Positions 29,207-38,600 of a DNA stretch of 64,000 nt are shown here, in pieces; the stretch's first letter is position 1, and every line of letters starts with the position of its first letter. The stretch comes from Manduca sexta (taxonomy: Eukaryota > Arthropoda > Insecta > Lepidoptera > Sphingidae). The notes below the pieces were generated by a model that worked only from the letters and a program-made list of their open reading frames with translations, ran no database searches and was not told the DNA's origin. The DNA lies in assembly GCF_014839805.1 (NCBI RefSeq), contig NC_051119.1:2473245-2537244 (forward strand), in the 5' to 3' direction. Both the position numbers and the translations under genes were made by a program.

Positions 29207-29239
29207 AAATAAAATTAAGAAAAAGATAGACTGGGAAAA

Positions 29240-30317
29240 ATGGACCCCTTATTAAAATTAAATCAAATTTATTATGATGTATCACATCCAGCTGGATACA
29301 GTTGTATTGACAAATTATCAAGAGCCATGAAAGGTAAAATGAAAAGGACGACGTTAAAATTGGTTGCGAACCCAAGAAACATACATCTCCACAAGCCTGT
29401 ACATAGAAAATTCCCACGAAATAAATACATTTTATCTAACCTAAATGAACTATGGCAAGCCGACTTAAGTGATATGCGGACTTATTCTAAAGAAAAAAAG
29501 GTTATAACTACATTCTTTGTGTTATTGACGTTTTCAGCAAATATGCATATGCTAGGCCCTTGAAAAGAAAAAATTCAGATACAATCAAAAGTGTTTCGAA
29601 AGTATATTTGAAGAAGCTGACACAACACCTACTCACATACAATCTGACAAAGGCACTGAATTTGTTTCAAAAGATGTACAAAGATACTTCAAAACAAAAA
29701 ATATTAATTATTATACAACAAACAATCCCGATATCAAAGCAAGTATTGTAGAAAGATTTCAAAGAACGCTTAAAATGAAGATGTGGCGTTATTTCACACA
29801 TAAGAATACTCATAAATATATTGACATTTTGCAGGATTTGATACACTCCTACAATTACAGTTTTCATTCTAGTATCAAAATGTGTCCTTCAGATGTTAAT
29901 TCTAATAATATAATGACAGTTTGGACTAATTTGTATGAAAAAGTCTGAAAAAACCTGCTAAAATTATGTTACCTACGTTCAATGTGGGTGATCATGTAAG
30001 AATAACGAAATATAAACATATATTTCAAAAAGGTTATGAATCTAATTGGAGTGATGAAATATTTGTGATTTCTTCTATAATAGAACGAACTCCGTGGCCA
30101 GTTTATACTATTAAAGATTTAGATGGAGAAGAGATAGTAGGAACTTTTATGACCGAGAATTACAAAAGTTATTTATGACCCCACCATCGAACATAAGATA
30201 GATAAAATAATTCGCTCTCGCTATTCTGGCAACTGACAACAAGTGTTAGTTAAATGGAAAGGTTATCCGAACAAATTTAATAGTTGGATTTTAGCGTCTA
30301 GTTTGAAACAAATATGA
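29240..30317 (+). pseudogene. Polinton retroviral-type integrase with chromodomain, broken
   Basis: The start ATG at 29240 (context aaaaatgga) opens a Polinton-type integrase N-terminus (YYDVSHPAGYSCIDKLSRAM). The catalytic core is recognisable in pieces: the first Asp in LWQADLSDM, the second in an SDKGTEF motif near 29650, and the Glu in a VERFQRT motif near 29750. It is followed by an SH3-like domain (FNVGDHVRI, 29970-30178) and a chromodomain-like end (VLVKWKGYPN near 30246-30275). The reading frame changes at least four times: in the A7 run at 29493-29499, near 29592-29598, in the A6 run at 29948-29953, and near 30140-30167. There is also an in-frame TGA at 30234. The stop at 30315-30317 overlaps the next gene's ATG. 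As read it cannot make integrase. Some of the A-run shifts could be sequencing errors. Confidence 0.9.
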
Positions 30318-31421: not shown

Positions 31422-31534
31422 CAAAACGAAAACGTCTACCAGGAGTCATTCCATCGTTGACTGCGAAAGTGAAAGCTCTAAAAAAATCGAAAATTACTTC
31501 AAAACAGATCAAAGATATATTTTCTAACAATTAA
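31400..31534 (+). CDS. 44-residue, very basic virion-core-like protein
   Basis: ATG at 31400, TAA at 31532-31534, in a different frame from the preceding gene, whose last 22 bases it overlaps. It starts SGSGYITKRKRLPGVIP and continues with repeated Lys pairs. Eleven of 44 residues are Lys or Arg, and there are no acidic residues except one Asp near the end. The next ATG (major capsid) follows only 5 bases after the stop. The tight packing and basic charge suggest a DNA-condensing core peptide, comparable in kind to adenovirus mu/X. This function is an inference from composition and position. Short, so chance cannot be excluded, but it fills an otherwise empty space between two structural genes. 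Confidence 0.6.
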   Translation: MSGSGYITKRKRLPGVIPSLTAKVKALKKSKITSKQIKDIFSNN

Positions 31535-31539
31535 TCAAT

Positions 31540-32854
31540 ATGTCTTTTTTACACAGTCATTCCTGTGAATGCATTAAGTCTGAATTAGATTTGTTTGCAT
31601 TGCCATCTACACAAACTAGTATTGAAAGTGGGATTTGGATTCATTATAAGCCAATTTCGTCACTAGCGGACGATGGTCCAATAGAATTTCAAGTTCCCGG
31701 AGCAGGCGATGACTACATAGATCTTTCTCATACGTTAATTCACTTAAAAGCTAAAATATTGAATCAAGATAACACTAAACTAGTGACGTCTACAGTTGTG
31801 GCTCCTGTGAATAATTGGTTACACTCACTCTTCAGTCAACTTGATGTATACCTGAATCAAAAACTTGTGTCACCACCCAATAACACCTATGCTTATCGCG
31901 CTTATATAGAAAACTTGTTGAATTATGCTCCTGCGGCTAAAAACTCTCACCTCACCTGTGGTTTATGGTACGAAGACACAGCTGGCAACATGGATTCCAC
32001 GACTGATGCTAATAAAGGATTTATCAAAAGACAAGAGATAGCCGGTGAGAGTAAAGAAATTGAAATGATTGGTCATTTACATGGTGATTTATTCAATCAA
32101 GAAAAATTTTTGATTAACGGTGTTGATATGTGTGTTAAGTTAGTTCGTTCTAGAGAAAATTTCAATCTTATGGCCTCTTCAGTTGACCTTAAATTGAAGG
32201 TATCCATTACGGATGCAACTTTAATTATTCGTAGAGCACGAATCAATCCAAGCGTGTTACTTGCACACCAGAAGGTTTTTAGCATCTACCACAGCTAAAT
32301 ACCCTATCACTCGAGCTGAAGTTAAAGTTTTAACAATACCATCAGGTGTTCAAGGAAAAACTCTTGATAATATTTTCTTAGGACAAGTACCTAAAAGGTG
32401 TATAGTTGGATTTGTGAATAACGCTGCTTTTAATGGAAATCTCACTAAAAACCCGTTCAACTTTGAAAATTATGATATTAATACTTTTTGTTTATATATA
32501 GATGGTCAACAAATACCATCAAAAGCTTTACAACCCTCATTCGACAGCAATATTTTTACTTCGGTATATCATACGTTGTTTTCCGGTACAGGTATACATT
32601 TTCTTAATGAAGGTAATGGAATATCTCGAGAACAATATGCCAAAGGGTATTGTATGTTAGCGTTTGATTTGACACCTGATTTATCAGCAAACTCTTCCAG
32701 TCACTGGAATCTTATAAAACATGGTAGTGTAAGATTAGAAGTTCGTTTTGAAACAGCTTTGACGCAAACTATTAACTGTATTGTTTATGCAGAGTTTGAT
32801 AATGTTATTGAAATAGATAAAAACCGTAATATTTCAGTAGATTATAGCAGTTAA
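31540..32854 (+). pseudogene. Polinton major capsid protein (double jelly roll), one frameshift
   Basis: The first frame (31540-32298) begins SFLHSHSCECIKSELDLFAL and carries the first jelly roll, including VNNWLHSLFSQLDVYLN and NYAPAAKNSHL. Near 32276-32281 (TTTTT) similarity passes to another frame that continues to 32854 with AEVKVLTIPSGVQGKTLDNI, FCLYIDGQQIPSKALQPSF, KGYCMLAFDLTPDLSA and a hydrophobic end. The total span of about 437 codons is right for the family, which forms pseudo-hexagonal trimers like adenovirus hexon. Only this one shift damages it. Its position in a five-T run makes a sequencing error a real alternative to inactivation. AATAAA follows the stop. Confidence 0.9.
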
Positions 32855-32863: not shown

Positions 32864-33072
32864 AATTGTTTATAGAATAAGTATTTTAAATTGCTCAATA
32901 AAATGATTACATCATATAATATTTATTTTTTTGTAATTTAATCCTTGCAACCCCACAAAAAATATCTGTCTTTCAATAAAGAGAACCATAACAGGTTATT
33001 GTTAACCATATTGATGATATTACCACTTTGTCGTTCAACCTGATAAGATTGTGCAACAATTTAGTAAATAAA

Positions 33073-33513
33073 ATGAATACAATAGAAATACAGAATTACT
33101 TGAAAAAAATTGATCCATGCATTGAATATAATGTGTATGCAGCCAATCGTTTACCGATATATGTTGTAACTCCTGCATACATAGTAAGTAACTTAGATCC
33201 TGATAATAAACCAGGTTCTCATTGGGTTGCCATACACATAGATAAGAATGGATTTGGACAGTATTTTGACTCATATGGTCGACCACCTCAAGGATACCAC
33301 CGAATGTTTTTAGCGAGAAATTCTAGAATGTGGAATTACAATACTAATCGAATTCAAAATGATTTTACTATTGTGTGTGGAGAGTACTGTATAATGTATT
33401 TGTATTATAAATATTATGGCAGGAGTCTCAAAGATTTTCAACAATTATTTGGTGCCAATACTATATATAATGATGTGTTATTAAATGGTTTATTTAATAA
33501 TGTTTTAAATTGA
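33073..33513 (+). CDS. Adenain-type cysteine protease (Polinton PRO)
   Basis: A 146-codon, intact maturation protease of the adenovirus C5 family, which cleaves capsid precursor proteins inside the particle. I chose the ATG at 33073 (context aaaatga), because the 15 residues before it (from an ATG at 33028) do not fit the family. With this start, His50 (GSHWVAIHID), Asp66 (GQYFDSYGRPP), Gln95 (NRIQNDF) and Cys102 (VCGEYCIMYL) occupy the positions of the adenain catalytic His, acidic residue, oxyanion Gln and nucleophile. The Gln-to-Cys distance of 7 is the same as in adenovirus. The C-terminus ends at a Leu/Asn-rich tail and TGA. It lies 3' of the capsid genes and its AATAAA overlaps the stop codon. 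Confidence 0.93.
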   Translation: MNTIEIQNYLKKIDPCIEYNVYAANRLPIYVVTPAYIVSNLDPDNKPGSHWVAIHIDKNGFGQYFDSYGRPPQGYHRMFLARNSRMWNYNTNRIQNDFTIVCGEYCIMYLYYKYYGRSLKDFQQLFGANTIYNDVLLNGLFNNVLN

Positions 33514-33557: not shown

Positions 33558-33930
33558 CTATACTAATAAACTAATACAAAAATATAATTAGTTCCAAACA
33601 TGTTTTAACGGTTCCCAATTACTTTACAATCGTAAGCTTGACTTGACTTGACAAATATTAAAAGAATCATAAGTATTTACAATAATTATACTTAGCACTA
33701 GCACAAAGAGTTCAAAATGCAAATAGATGAGTAACTTAAAACACTGTTTTTACAATACAATCTAAATTATTAAAATATTTAAGTATAGCAATCGCAAAAA
33801 TACAATGATTGGTTTCTTAGAACAAAGCATAATATCTAAATGAAATCAATTATTTCTTTCACACGACGAACATTTCAAAGTTATTAAGTTATAAAAGTTT
33901 ATGCACTGGCACTACACACTGACACTTTTT

Positions 33931-34647
33931 TCATTTGTCTGTATCTATTGTATATTTCACACAATCGTCCTTACTAGCCAACTGTTTAGTAATATTGTAT
34001 ATGGTGTCCTTTACGGTTTGCAAGTTCTTATCACAGTCACTTTCTGCGTAATATTTAAGTCGCACTTCAGCGTGTTTCCACTGTTCGATCGTTGCAATAT
34101 TTTTTATTTTATTAACGTCGTAAATTTCAATTTTAATCAGGTGTGATGCATGTGTACCGTCGTCGCTATTAGATTTGATGTATGAAATGCCGCCACCACT
34201 CGTTGATCGACCAACACTGGATGACTTTTTCGTATTTGTCTTTTTCTTCTTTGGTTTTTCGAAAAAGTCATCGATGTTGTTAAATTCGTTCGATCTTTTA
34301 TTGGCTATGATCGCCTTTTTGACTTTGGCTGCGAGCGTCCCTTCTTCGTCACTAGGTTCATCGTGTTCATCAGCGTAATAATAACTCTTGAAAGTATTTT
34401 CAGGAAACTGTAATAAAAAATTTATAAAAAATGTTTTAGTTATCGGTTAAGTAAGTAGTATGTGATAAATACGTATAGGTATGCTAAGTATAAATGTACA
34501 AGTTAATAACAATGATAAATTAATAAGAGATCGAAGACAGCTAAAATGTATTAAAATCGTGGACAACACATACAATAAACAATTAATTAAACATCTGGTT
34601 GGTTATAACAACGTTAGGTCAAAGTATAAAAAGGTACTTACATTCAT
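33931..34647 (-). CDS. Unrecognised spliced gene of the Polinton right arm (two exons, 160 residues)
   Basis: Exon 1 coding part is only ATG AAT (34647-34642), directly followed by a consensus donor (GTAAGTACC). The 234-nt intron (34641-34408) ends in a pyrimidine-rich acceptor (TTTTTTATTACAG). Exon 2 (34407-33931) is open for 158 codons to TGA with no internal stop. It contains no in-frame ATG, so it does not appear as an ordinary ORF. The protein has an acidic start (YYYADEHDEPSDEEG), a phenylalanine patch before a nuclear-localisation-like cluster (DDFFEKPKKKKTNTKK), a Gly/Ser linker (STSGGGISYIKS), then a mixed region (IKIEIYDVNKIKNIATIEQW) with two Cys near the end. A TATA box lies about 110 bases upstream. 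I cannot assign a function. A nuclear or DNA-binding role is suggested only by the basic cluster. It could belong to the Polinton or, less likely, be a host exon pair. Confidence 0.7.
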
Positions 34648-34755
34648 TTTTATAACAGTTTCACTATTTTAACACTTCACTATTACACTTAACTGGAGAT
34701 CTCGCTTGGAACAGAGCACAGAGTGGAATACGATACCATGTGATTTTGAGTCGGT

Positions 34756-34764
34756 CTTTTATAT
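34756..34764 (-). promoter_or_regulatory. TATA box of the spliced minus-strand gene
   Basis: ATATAAAAG on the minus strand, about 110 bases before the ATG at 34647. It fits a pol II core promoter with an untranslated leader of roughly 80 bases. Confidence 0.65.
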
Positions 34765-35220
34765 GGAGAGCGAGCATTGTTTCCGTACAGACAAGACTCA
34801 ACATGTTTCCAACTTTCACCATAAATTTTATATTGAATACGTATTATTCGAAAATGGGAATAATAGAGACGAGACCTATTGTTAAAAATAATAGAGAAGT
34901 AGTAAATCATTGATAAAATATAGTTACCACCCGTGGGAACAATGAGAGGATGCAAAGGTTTTGTACCTAGAATTTGGGTAATGTATTATGTATGACAAAC
35001 AATTGATTGATTTATCTTTCACAAACAATGGCCATAATGTGTAAAGGGTCAGTATTGAGTAATTGTAAACGGTTATTAAGTAGAAATACGATACAAAGAC
35101 CTTAGAGTTTTTAAATAAAAAAAGGATCACTGATAGAAAGTAGAAAGACAAAAGCATAACGAAACAAAGGGAACAGGTCCAAGCTTGAAAATGAGCCGTA
35201 GAGCATGAGTAAAGTTAATG
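34765..35220. other. Polinton right arm, non-coding
   Basis: Small open frames on the minus strand (34689-35157) are AT-rich and show no domain. Presumably promoter and subterminal sequence. Confidence 0.5.
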
Positions 35221-35560
35221 CATCACTCCATTCGCGGGTGATATAAATGATAAATGCAATCCGCGGACGTTGGTATTGAAATCCACGGTTAACTTCGACG
35301 TAAAATGCGGACGGTACAAGAGTAATCCGCGGACGGTATCATTGAAAGTCGCGCCGATAACAATGAAATTCGCGGGCGGTACAATTTTAATTCGCGGGTG
35401 CTATCATTTTAATTCGCGGTCGGTATTATTTTAATTCGCGGTTGATATCATTTTAATTCGCGGTCGGTATAATTTTAATTCGCGGTTGATATCAATTTAA
35501 TTCGCGGTTGATATCAATTTAATTCGCGGTTGATATCAAATTAATTCGCGGATAGTATAG
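35221..35560. repeat. 22-bp tandem array at the Polinton right end
   Basis: From about 35367 there are eight or nine units of 22 bases. Each begins AATTCGCGG, followed by a T/C-G-A/G-TAT core and a short T-rich end. Several neighbouring units are identical except for one or two positions (35479-35545). Left of 35367 the same CGCGG motif recurs at irregular spacing, as older degenerate units. It is not a CRISPR: there are no unique spacers. Confidence 0.9.
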
Positions 35561-35653
35561 TGCCCCGGCCCTGGAGCAGGCCGCGGACCCCCCGTGGCCG
35601 GGGGCGCGGGGTGGCGTCGCAGGTGCTCGGGTATCGGTGAATCCCTTACTACT
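35561..35653. other. GC-rich patch between the array and copy B
   Basis: A short block (gtgccccggccctggagcag, ccgtggccgggggcgcgggg) whose composition is very different from the AT-rich surroundings and which has self-complementary GGCC/CCGG parts. It may be the element's terminal sequence or an unrelated fragment. Confidence 0.5.
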
Positions 35654-38600
35654 CACATAGAGACAGAGAAAGCGACTTTGTTTTATACTATGTAGTGATG
35701 ATGAATAATAAATATAGGTAAGTATTATTTTACATATGTTCAGATCTTAATCCGCTTATGCTAATGTACATATTACTCATGTTGAATGAGTTTTTCAGAG
35801 TGTTATTTGTATTTGGTCGGATAAAACATTTATGTGATTGTTAGAATTGACCCAAATGTGAAATAGGTTTTTAATATTAAGATTTAGGGTTTGGAATTGA
35901 TGCCTGATATAACGATGAGCTGGCATATTATTATAGGACGGAAAACACATGGCGGAAATTGACTGCAATAATAACACCTCTGTCTAACCTTTCGAGGGTA
36001 AAAGGCATAAGAGTATATTTTTTATTGTTTTGACTGACGAGACAAGCTTACCGTTCGCCTGATGGTAAGCGATACGACCGCCCATAAACAGTAGAAACAC
36101 CATCCCACACCTTGAATTACAAAGTATTGTTTGGTATTCCACTGCGCTCGCCATCCTAAGACATGAGATGTTATGTTTCATTATGTCCAGTAGTTACACT
36201 GGCTACAATGTCCTTCAAACCGGAACACAACAGTGACTACACACTGCTACTTAGCGGCAGAACTAGACATTGCGGTGGTACCTATCTAGGCGAACTCTTG
36301 CATGTGGGAGTCCTACCACCAGTCTTATAAGAACCTACTTATATATGACGATTTATTGTTATAGCTCGAGTATCATCACCATCAGTGAGCGGCGAACACT
36401 GCGTACCTACCACCAGTAAAACTATATGCGGAATAATATAGTGTACGCGAAAGAATAATATTAATATCCTATTCAATTCCGTAAAAAAATACAAATGACT
36501 ACACATTAATTTTGTTGCAAACGTTCAGATCATCCAGATATGTTAATTGTGCTGGTCACATCGCGATTGTAATCAGCGGAAGCAATGCATTTTGACTAAT
36601 GGATTACAATTCACGTTGGAATTTTATAATTGTTATTAATGATGCGGCAGATATCTGTGTATTTATATTTATATGGACAGGTGAATGGCTAAATAACTTA
36701 AACGACATTTTTTTTTTCTATTTATTTATTTATTTATTTACAAATCATAGCACTTACATTAAGTGGGTTATTACAACTGAGTTAGGATGCGCACTAAGTT
36801 TAGAACTTGTATCGCGTATCCTTTACAAACCAGTAACAATAATTAAATTTGTCAGACTCTAGTTCGACGTCTCAAAGTTACAAAAAGAAATCAAATAACA
36901 ATAAAAGTAATAATAACTACAAAAATTCTCTATAAAGAATTAACTACTAAAGAAAAACAGCATGAAAGTTTTATACATATTGAAAATCAGTTTTTTCTGT
37001 GTTTTATAAGTTAGCGCCTATATCAATTAGCCTTAGACTTTTCTAAATTATCTGTGTATTTTTTACGAATTTAACTTGTTTTAACGGCGAAGGAAAATAT
37101 CGTGGGGCAACCTGCATACTTGAGAAGTTCTCTATAGGGATTTCCAGGGTGTGTGAATTCTATTAATCCGTACTAGACCAGCATAGTGGACAAGCCTATT
37201 TCCTTCTCAGTAGTAGGGGAGGCCCGAGCCCAGCAGTGGGACGGTATATAATACAAGGCTGATATTATTATGTAAACATACATCCATCTTTCATTCTATA
37301 CATCCTCTATGGTGGTCGGGTCAGCTTTCCCCATTCATCTTTATCTAAAATCTCAAATCTACTTTACTTATTAAAAATATCTCCCATCAGCTACTAAAGG
37401 TAATTACGCCTCAAGCCTTACTACTTTATTCCAAGTTTGTAGTTTAAAGTCACATAACCCGGCCAGTTTGTAAAGCCCCGTATATCCATTAGCCAACGTC
37501 GTTTATCATGACAATCCGCGCGGGCAGCGCTACATCCATTAACGTTCGGTTAACCATCTCATTAGTGCGCGTTAGATTTGGAATTATGCGTGTTGCGACG
37601 AACACTGACGTATGGAAGCGACATCGGAGTCCATGTTAATGGCCGTCTCGGTTATGATTTCTTACGTTTACGCGAATATTGATATTAAAAATTTAACTAT
37701 TTTTCGGGTTTTATCGCGGTTTTAATACTTTACTTTTTCCCGACGTGTCGAAGATTCATCTGCGACTAGACAAGCGACAAAATTCTTGCCAAGGAACACC
37801 GATTCCTGCCTAAAATAATTGGCGAGGCTATTGCAATTAAAAAAAACATCCGAATTTCAATAGACAAATGGTTGGAAGCTTGTACAGGCCTACATTAGTA
37901 TAAGACAGTAAGATCCAGTTTAACATTTAATTAAATCGGAACCTAAAAGACCGGCAGCCAGACTTCAACACTGTAAGCACATTCTAGGTAGATCGGATCA
38001 CCAACAGCTAAAATTAAATGTATAATTGTAAAATGTAGGTAGATATTGTAACTTTGACTTTGCGGATGAACAACACCTCAGTCTCCGCGTGGCCACGAAG
38101 GCTGCAAAGTCTTTGAAACGTCGGGAGAAAACAATAATATTAAAACCGCGAAAAAAATGGAAAAATAGTAAAACTTTTAAGTACTTAAATTAGTCGATAA
38201 CAACACGGTTTTACTCACGTTTAAAAAGTAGTCGGAATAGCCGACCAGTTTCAATAATATTATTTTTAAGTACTTCTCTATATTATAAATATATTGCATA
38301 CTCTTTATTTTTTTTAGCAGAGGAACGACTCGTTATTACCCATCACTTGGGGATCCGAGAAACGGTTATACATAGACCTATTGATTTTAAATGTCAATTG
38401 ATCTCAACTTTAATGGCATTACAATATGTTTGGAATCAAGATCTTTACGATCGTTAACATTTATAGGAACTACTTTCCTTGAATGATTAATTCAATTACA
38501 GCCTATTTTCAAATAATCTTTTTGCTATCTGTTTTGTGCCAAATCCAATATAAATCGTTACCTTCTAGATGTGACTCGTAACTTCATCCGCTTGAAAGAA

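Follow-up and report, generated by a model that had tools for sequence, protein, structure and literature searches.

The window analyzed here, a stretch of 64,000 nucleotides from the Manduca sexta genome, carries on its minus strand a real gene, probably spliced from two exons, located within a terminal inverted repeat of a recently multiplied lepidopteran Polinton, of which it forms an integral part. The product of the joined exons (160 residues) ends in an α/β domain that is predicted to fold like the NS2 proteins of parvoviruses and densoviruses, and we assign a probability of about 0.6 to the reading that it acts as an early nuclear regulator of the Polinton, NS2-like in fold. The start codon sits in a coding exon of only six bases, so that annotation from ATG to stop overlooks the gene. 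The features discussed below are collected in Table 1.

Table 1. Positions of the gene, its protein features and its surroundings in the window
Feature	Position	Strand	Remarks
TATA-like box ATATAAAAG	34756..34764	minus	109 bases before the ATG; putative promoter
Exon 1, coding part	34642..34647	minus	ATG AAT; read from the sequence, identical in 41/41 copies
Intron	34408..34641	minus	234 bases, GT-AG, phase 0, GTAAGTACC ... TTATTACAG
Exon 2	33931..34407	minus	158 codons and stop; no ATG within
PIP-like motif IDDFF	34261..34275	minus	exon-2 residues 45-49
Lysine cluster KPKKKK	34240..34257	minus	follows IDDFF
C-terminal α/β domain	33958..34227	minus	exon-2 residues 61-150; predicted NS2-like fold
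AATAAA	33552..33557	minus	possible poly(A) signal of the right-arm copy, just inside the inner edge of the repeat; putative function
Right terminal inverted repeat	33586..35653		~2.07 kb; tip 5'-AGTAGTAAGGGATT on the minus strand from 35653; from the 40-copy alignment
6 bp outside the tip	35654..35659		where a target-site duplication would be expected; no left partner in the window
Subterminal tandem repeat	35323..35551		22-bp unit TAATTCGCGGTCGGTATCATTT, ~10 copies
Adenain-like protease frame	32992..33513	plus	adjoins the repeat; no Pfam match over cut-off
Capsid-like region	31528..32854	plus	two overlapping frames, 31528-32298 and 32225-32854; no Pfam match over cut-off
Integrase-like region	29219..30178	plus	scattered over several frames

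A spliced gene at this place was proposed by a first-pass annotation made from the letters of the DNA, and its ATG AAT, donor, intron, acceptor, second exon and upstream box all lie where it put them; the donor GTAAGTACC begins at 34641, the acceptor TTTTTTATTACAG ends at 34408, and the phase-0 join of ATG AAT to the 158 codons, which contain no ATG, keeps the frame. The sharing of these splice sites by the copies in the host genome is a weak test, because the copies differ from the window by only ~1% in exon 2. The acceptor seen across species offers a stronger test. The unspliced raw frames of relatives cross the acceptor, reading F or L, then Q (encoded by TTTCAG or TTACAG) and then the start of exon 2. 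The raw relative P0024, for example, reads MLQ before LSEENTFK, where the annotated relative P0026 reads MD before the same residues, and the annotated models from Choristoneura and Cydia open with MD, i.e. with a two-residue first exon. Among the 81 raw-type relatives (the 97 described below minus 16 database-named ones, separated by hand), 69 contain the anchor motif. A search for [FLSWY]Q upstream of the anchor, which demanded no exact position, succeeds in 45 of the 69; the remaining 24 have a Met start near the anchor or (P0029, P0091) a Q that the pattern overlooked. These comparisons support a conserved intron boundary and strongly, if indirectly, a gene that is spliced as predicted.

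The host genome contains at least 40 copies of exon 2 with 98-100% DNA identity, the window's own included (80 candidates, of which 40 were scored), while a protein search of the same genome returns 157 matches, many of them pieces of a single copy. The copies frequently occur in inverted pairs, with the plus-strand copy at the low coordinate. We compared the ends of 40 further copies with the window, 39 of these copies coming from the DNA search and one from the protein search: similarity extends to the common tip AGTAGTAAGGGATT (window position 35653) in 35 of them, and two more tips were located by their letters. Left and right arms diverge at window positions 33578-33586, and the repeat includes the whole coding gene together with its putative promoter; 15 copies are typed as left arms, 19 as right arms and 6 are unclear. 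Both tips are present in 11 of the 13 pairs examined, with identical 6-bp flanks in 10 of the 11; the flanks of the C2206 pair do not match. The three PolB (PF03175) matches in the host genome all fall between paired copies (on contigs C14, C2206 and C3). The elements thus display terminal inverted repeats with a 6-bp target-site duplication and a type-B DNA polymerase inside, as Polintons do. The gene lies inside the terminal inverted repeats, and every complete element accordingly carries it twice, both copies reading inward. The first-pass annotation had placed the gene on the right arm of a Polinton; it does lie there, but it lies in the opposite repeat as well. The window's own element has a gap of 500 N on its left, and no left partner was found among the copies listed.

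In the interior of the element next to the repeat are frames that we take to encode an adenain-like protease and, from two overlapping pieces, a capsid protein. The protease frame also adjoins the repeat in the loci L004 and L006, and partly in L027, and the second capsid-like frame (32225-32854) recurs in L004 and L006. In the integrase-like region, a match to rve (29556-29948, E 6.6e-6) stays below the Pfam curated cut-off. A search of IMG/VR gave no relative of the capsid or protease frames, nor of the gene itself. The subterminal array of 22-bp units might be where a replication protein or a regulatory protein binds. Near the start of the window, the minus strand of 109-2271 holds an open frame of 720 codons, presumably a Gypsy-type retroelement polyprotein (reverse transcriptase to integrase).

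The state of the gene was compared over 41 copies (the window plus 40). ATG AAT, the donor, an ATTACAG acceptor and the TATA box are kept in all 41, the box having one extra A in four. Exon 2 is uninterrupted in 6 of the 41 and carries indels in 35. Most indel events (54 of 67) fall in or beside homopolymers of at least four bases; the bases inside such runs amount to 10% of exon 2, and the share in or beside them is larger. Frame-breaking indels (in L009-L048) recur at the same homopolymers, e.g. in 22 copies at 34260. Many of the indels may well reflect assembly error in a repeated element and not real damage. One open-frame copy, on contig C25, keeps ATG AAT GTAAGT and has lost the IDDFF motif via a local frame change.

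Selection on the exon-2 protein is seen among the copies. For the selection count, any substitution lying 6 alignment columns or less from an indel was dropped, which reduces the distinct exon-2 variants from 48 (23 synonymous, 25 nonsynonymous) to 35 (19 synonymous, 16 nonsynonymous). The expected synonymous share is 0.19-0.26, giving for the filtered set P values of 4e-6 to 4e-4 and an omega of 0.20-0.30, and the dN/dS comparison put forward by the first-pass annotation therefore shows a synonymous excess. Divergence is 1.12% in exon 2, 2.40% in the intron and 3.79% on the 3' side before filtering, and 0.90%, 1.60% and 1.57%, respectively, after it. Since this contrast shrinks, and since exon 2 has at least as many distinct variants per site (0.073) as the intron (0.066), the case for selection rests on the synonymous share.

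Eleven further pieces are more distant. In seven, similarity of 93-96% to the repeat runs inward from the tip; the other four, which all lie on contig C4, match only the exon-2 region at 80-86%. The C4 relatives (4083500-4108800; L050 and L057-L059) lie on one strand over ~25 kb without the rest of the repeat, and two of the four match exon 2 in separate pieces. No exon-1-like ATG with a donor was found within 700 bases upstream in the three C4 pieces inspected; each has a TTAG acceptor-like end, and the one translated has stops. The C4 relatives derive either from an older lineage of Polintons or from local duplication.

Related proteins were collected in three rounds. The exon-2 product as query gave 14 proteins out of 35 candidates; a profile of the 14 found 78 among 7989 candidates scored; and a 65-sequence profile found 71, of which 19 were new, among 3786 word-sharing candidates, the word filter limiting the reach of this last search, which recovered only the exon-2 family. 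The distinct relatives number 97 in all. Most of them carry no species name; the species named among the matches listed are Choristoneura fumiferana, Aphantopus (Maniola) hyperantus, Cydia pomonella, Cydia amplana, Pararge aegeria, Phthorimaea operculella, Eumeta japonica, Plutella xylostella, Parnassius apollo, Dendrolimus kikuchii, Tuta absoluta and Chilo suppressalis. All 12 named species belong to the Lepidoptera. The first-pass suggestion of an undescribed gene of the element has to be narrowed: it is an element gene with a conserved boundary, and it has relatives, some of which are already in NCBI as uncharacterized lepidopteran proteins.

No precomputed Pfam domain lies on any of the 97 relatives, and neither Pfam nor PHROGs nor the sequences of the PDB yielded a credible relative of the gene product. 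A PDB profile match to 7ong_A (SAKe6BE-L1; E 2.3e-6, with no stretch passing by itself) was judged spurious. In one relative, P0070 (Dendrolimus kikuchii K1T71_005373), residues 165-319 form a second part with a Gly-rich hydrophobic tail, which to us resembles one known from Polinton small proteins; this extension may come from an adjacent Polinton gene that annotation joined to it. Nothing in the window credibly matches the tail, which is for this reason kept out of the evidence.

The N-terminal part of the protein is variable in the family, except for two low-entropy islands, TFKxYY and [IL]DxFFE with PKKKK. The pattern [IL]xxFF is present in 82 of the 97 relatives, and a looser form matches 89. 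Eight relatives do not match that looser form: seven begin at or past the motif, and P0040 fits the strict one. Motif positions were viewed for the first 78 relatives. We liken IDDFF to a PIP (PCNA-binding) box, for which the canonical consensus is Qxx[ILM]xx[FY][FY], many such boxes being followed by basic residues. The family shares with it [IL]xxFF and the basic residues, but the glutamine of the first position is not conserved. By sequence, the lysine cluster resembles a nuclear signal.

The fold of the C-terminal domain was predicted by AlphaFold. With 15 sequences the model is poor (pLDDT 53), whereas with 65 sequences the block means over residues 61-150 reach 94-98 pLDDT. In a structure search of BFVD with the confident model, the first 21 matches are all proteins of parvoviruses, densoviruses or parvo-like viruses (E 2.4e-6 to 6.7e-3, 15 of them at ≤0.001), 12 of which are named NS2, and rank 22 has an E-value of 0.38. 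The TM-scores normalized by query length are 0.33-0.55, low because the disordered N-terminus counts in that length. The poor model likewise places parvoviral proteins in rows 1-8, with a best E of 1.6e-3 and none reaching 0.001. At rank 9 of that search stands B2YG54, a Musca hytrovirus protein (E 0.088); possibly very distant homologues of a hytrosavirus gene are mentioned for a Drosophila adintovirus in the available portion of PMC8363768. Structure searches of the PDB gave no convincing match to the predicted fold among the matches listed.

The comparison with NS2 shows both likenesses and differences. Predicted models on both sides share the fold of the C-terminal domain, and a basic cluster occurs in both; the best NS2 match is A0A8E7G1Y5 (Tarsiger cyanurus ambidensovirus), and F8S8Q7 (Helicoverpa armigera densovirus) is also among them. 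A nuclear accessory role would be a further likeness, if our reading holds, with the NS2 proteins described in the accessible parts of PMC11768917 and PMC5296992. However, densovirus NS2 overlaps the NS1 frame in the NS cassette, while the Polinton gene stands alone in the terminal repeat, with its own N-terminus and its own intron. No sequence homology to known NS2 was detected with the 65-sequence profile among the 3786 word-sharing candidates. As sequence homology and NS1 overlap both fail, the protein is not classed as NS2, although it may well work like one.

As far as the sections available report, BmBDV NS2 is nuclear, stimulates the NS3 promoter and may reduce the activity of the VP promoter (PMC11768917), HaDV2 NS2 is nuclear (PMC5296992), and BgDV1 NS2 is found in nucleus and cytoplasm alike (PMC6071259). 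NS2 is stated in the same part of PMC11768917 to occur in all invertebrate ssDNA viruses and to be poorly conserved, and information on its evolution to be limited. Bidnaviruses combine parvovirus genes with a Polinton PolB, and the provenance of their NS2 was called unclear in 2014 (PMC4061559, in excerpt). By description, the NS2 of the bidnavirus BmBDV, a small nuclear protein of a lepidopteran DNA virus with a Polinton-derived PolB, is comparable with the protein studied here (excerpts of PMC4061559 and PMC11768917); no bidnavirus NS2 is named among the BFVD matches listed. For Spodoptera Mavericks, the available part of PMC5803895 describes a capsid-like gene that weakly resembles densovirus capsids and contains a PLA2 region of the kind seen in parvovirus VP1. 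The same text lists the Spodoptera frugiperda Maverick ORFs 2 and 6-8 as unidentified small ORFs (ORF8 with 158 residues), which can be compared by description; it reports them in tandem, and in that part mentions neither an intron nor a terminal repeat for them. The literature searched, which covers few subscription journals, contained no Polinton or Maverick gene linked to NS2. The host genome has a single Parvo_NS1 (PF01057) match (L060:1129-1728, contig C7, ~12514295; E 3.8e-5), in a 199-codon open frame that has an NS1-like stretch and is separate from the Polinton copies; it is an endogenous parvovirus- or bidnavirus-like remnant, for which IMG/VR gave no relative.

Other explanations of the gene were weighed against this evidence. 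Frame length alone is weak evidence, since a stop-to-stop frame of at least 171 codons arose in 8 of 100 order-2 Markov simulations (~63.5 kb each), which speaks for an open frame with splice sites, both due to chance. Homology, in the form of the 97 relatives, the 41/41 copies and the synonymous excess, raises the frame above chance, and the conservation of protein and acceptor across species refutes this explanation, whose probability is practically nil. Very improbable too is a moth gene that lies beside a Polinton insertion, or a gene captured from the host that continues to serve it. The Polinton-independent gene models in NCBI from several species would suit such a gene, but the at least 40 near-identical copies sit in both repeats of elements with 6-bp duplications, and copy number, repeats and duplications together contradict this reading in the host genome.

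A better case, though one that we still hold to be unlikely, can be made for a real Polinton gene whose likeness to NS2 is a shared simple α/β arrangement with no common origin, and whose role lies, for example, in the virion, in packaging or in counter-defence. It agrees with the missing sequence-level link to NS2 in the 65-sequence profile and with moderate TM-scores between predicted models of a short domain. Against it, the first 21 viral matches belong to one virus group and are followed by an abrupt leap in E-value, the same group leads with the second, weaker model, and the PDB has no comparably good match for the arrangement. It is improbable that the gene acts chiefly via PCNA, the [IL]xxFF motif recruiting the host clamp to the replicating DNA of the element, or withholding it from there, and the C-terminal domain serving as an adaptor. 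The motif is one of just two conserved islands in a variable N-terminus, is present in 82/97 relatives and has basic residues after it, as do many PIP boxes; yet the glutamine is not conserved, an open-frame copy (on C25) does without the motif, and the element carries its own PolB, protein-primed enzymes of this kind not being known to require PCNA.

The reading that we prefer is therefore an early nuclear regulator with an NS2-like fold, and the first-pass guess of an early or regulatory role would agree with the predicted fold and with the place of the gene. Being near each tip and reading inward, the gene is well placed for early expression. A promoter near each tip would drive inward reading of its gene copy, and splicing would supply the start codon from the six-base coding exon. 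The product would be a small, probably nuclear protein with a disordered N-terminus bearing TFKxYY, [IL]xxFF and the lysine cluster, followed by the α/β domain. Its role would most likely be that of NS2 in insect ssDNA viruses, i.e. an early nuclear factor balancing replication against expression of the capsid genes. The PIP-like motif possibly contacts host replication proteins (PCNA), a weaker proposal than that of an early nuclear regulator. Should the ancestry be common, transfer from densovirus to Polinton would be the simpler direction, since NS2 is reported for every group of invertebrate ssDNA viruses, whereas all members of the present family that have a species name are lepidopteran.

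A bolder version, which we regard as doubtful, is that lepidopteran Polintons carry in their terminal repeats a doubled, spliced immediate-early gene of common ancestry with the NS2 of ssDNA parvoviruses, acting as a common nuclear switch via host PCNA. If it were true, the traffic between parvoviruses and Polintons would include a regulatory gene besides PolB, and the origin of bidnavirus NS2 might be explained. The lepidopteran family with an NS2-like predicted fold offers a second lineage for the study of NS2, making its origin testable, and in Manduca sexta the carrier is a young dsDNA element with many copies in the host genome. Since both terminal repeats contain the gene, a role in dose or timing at the two replication ends is suggested.
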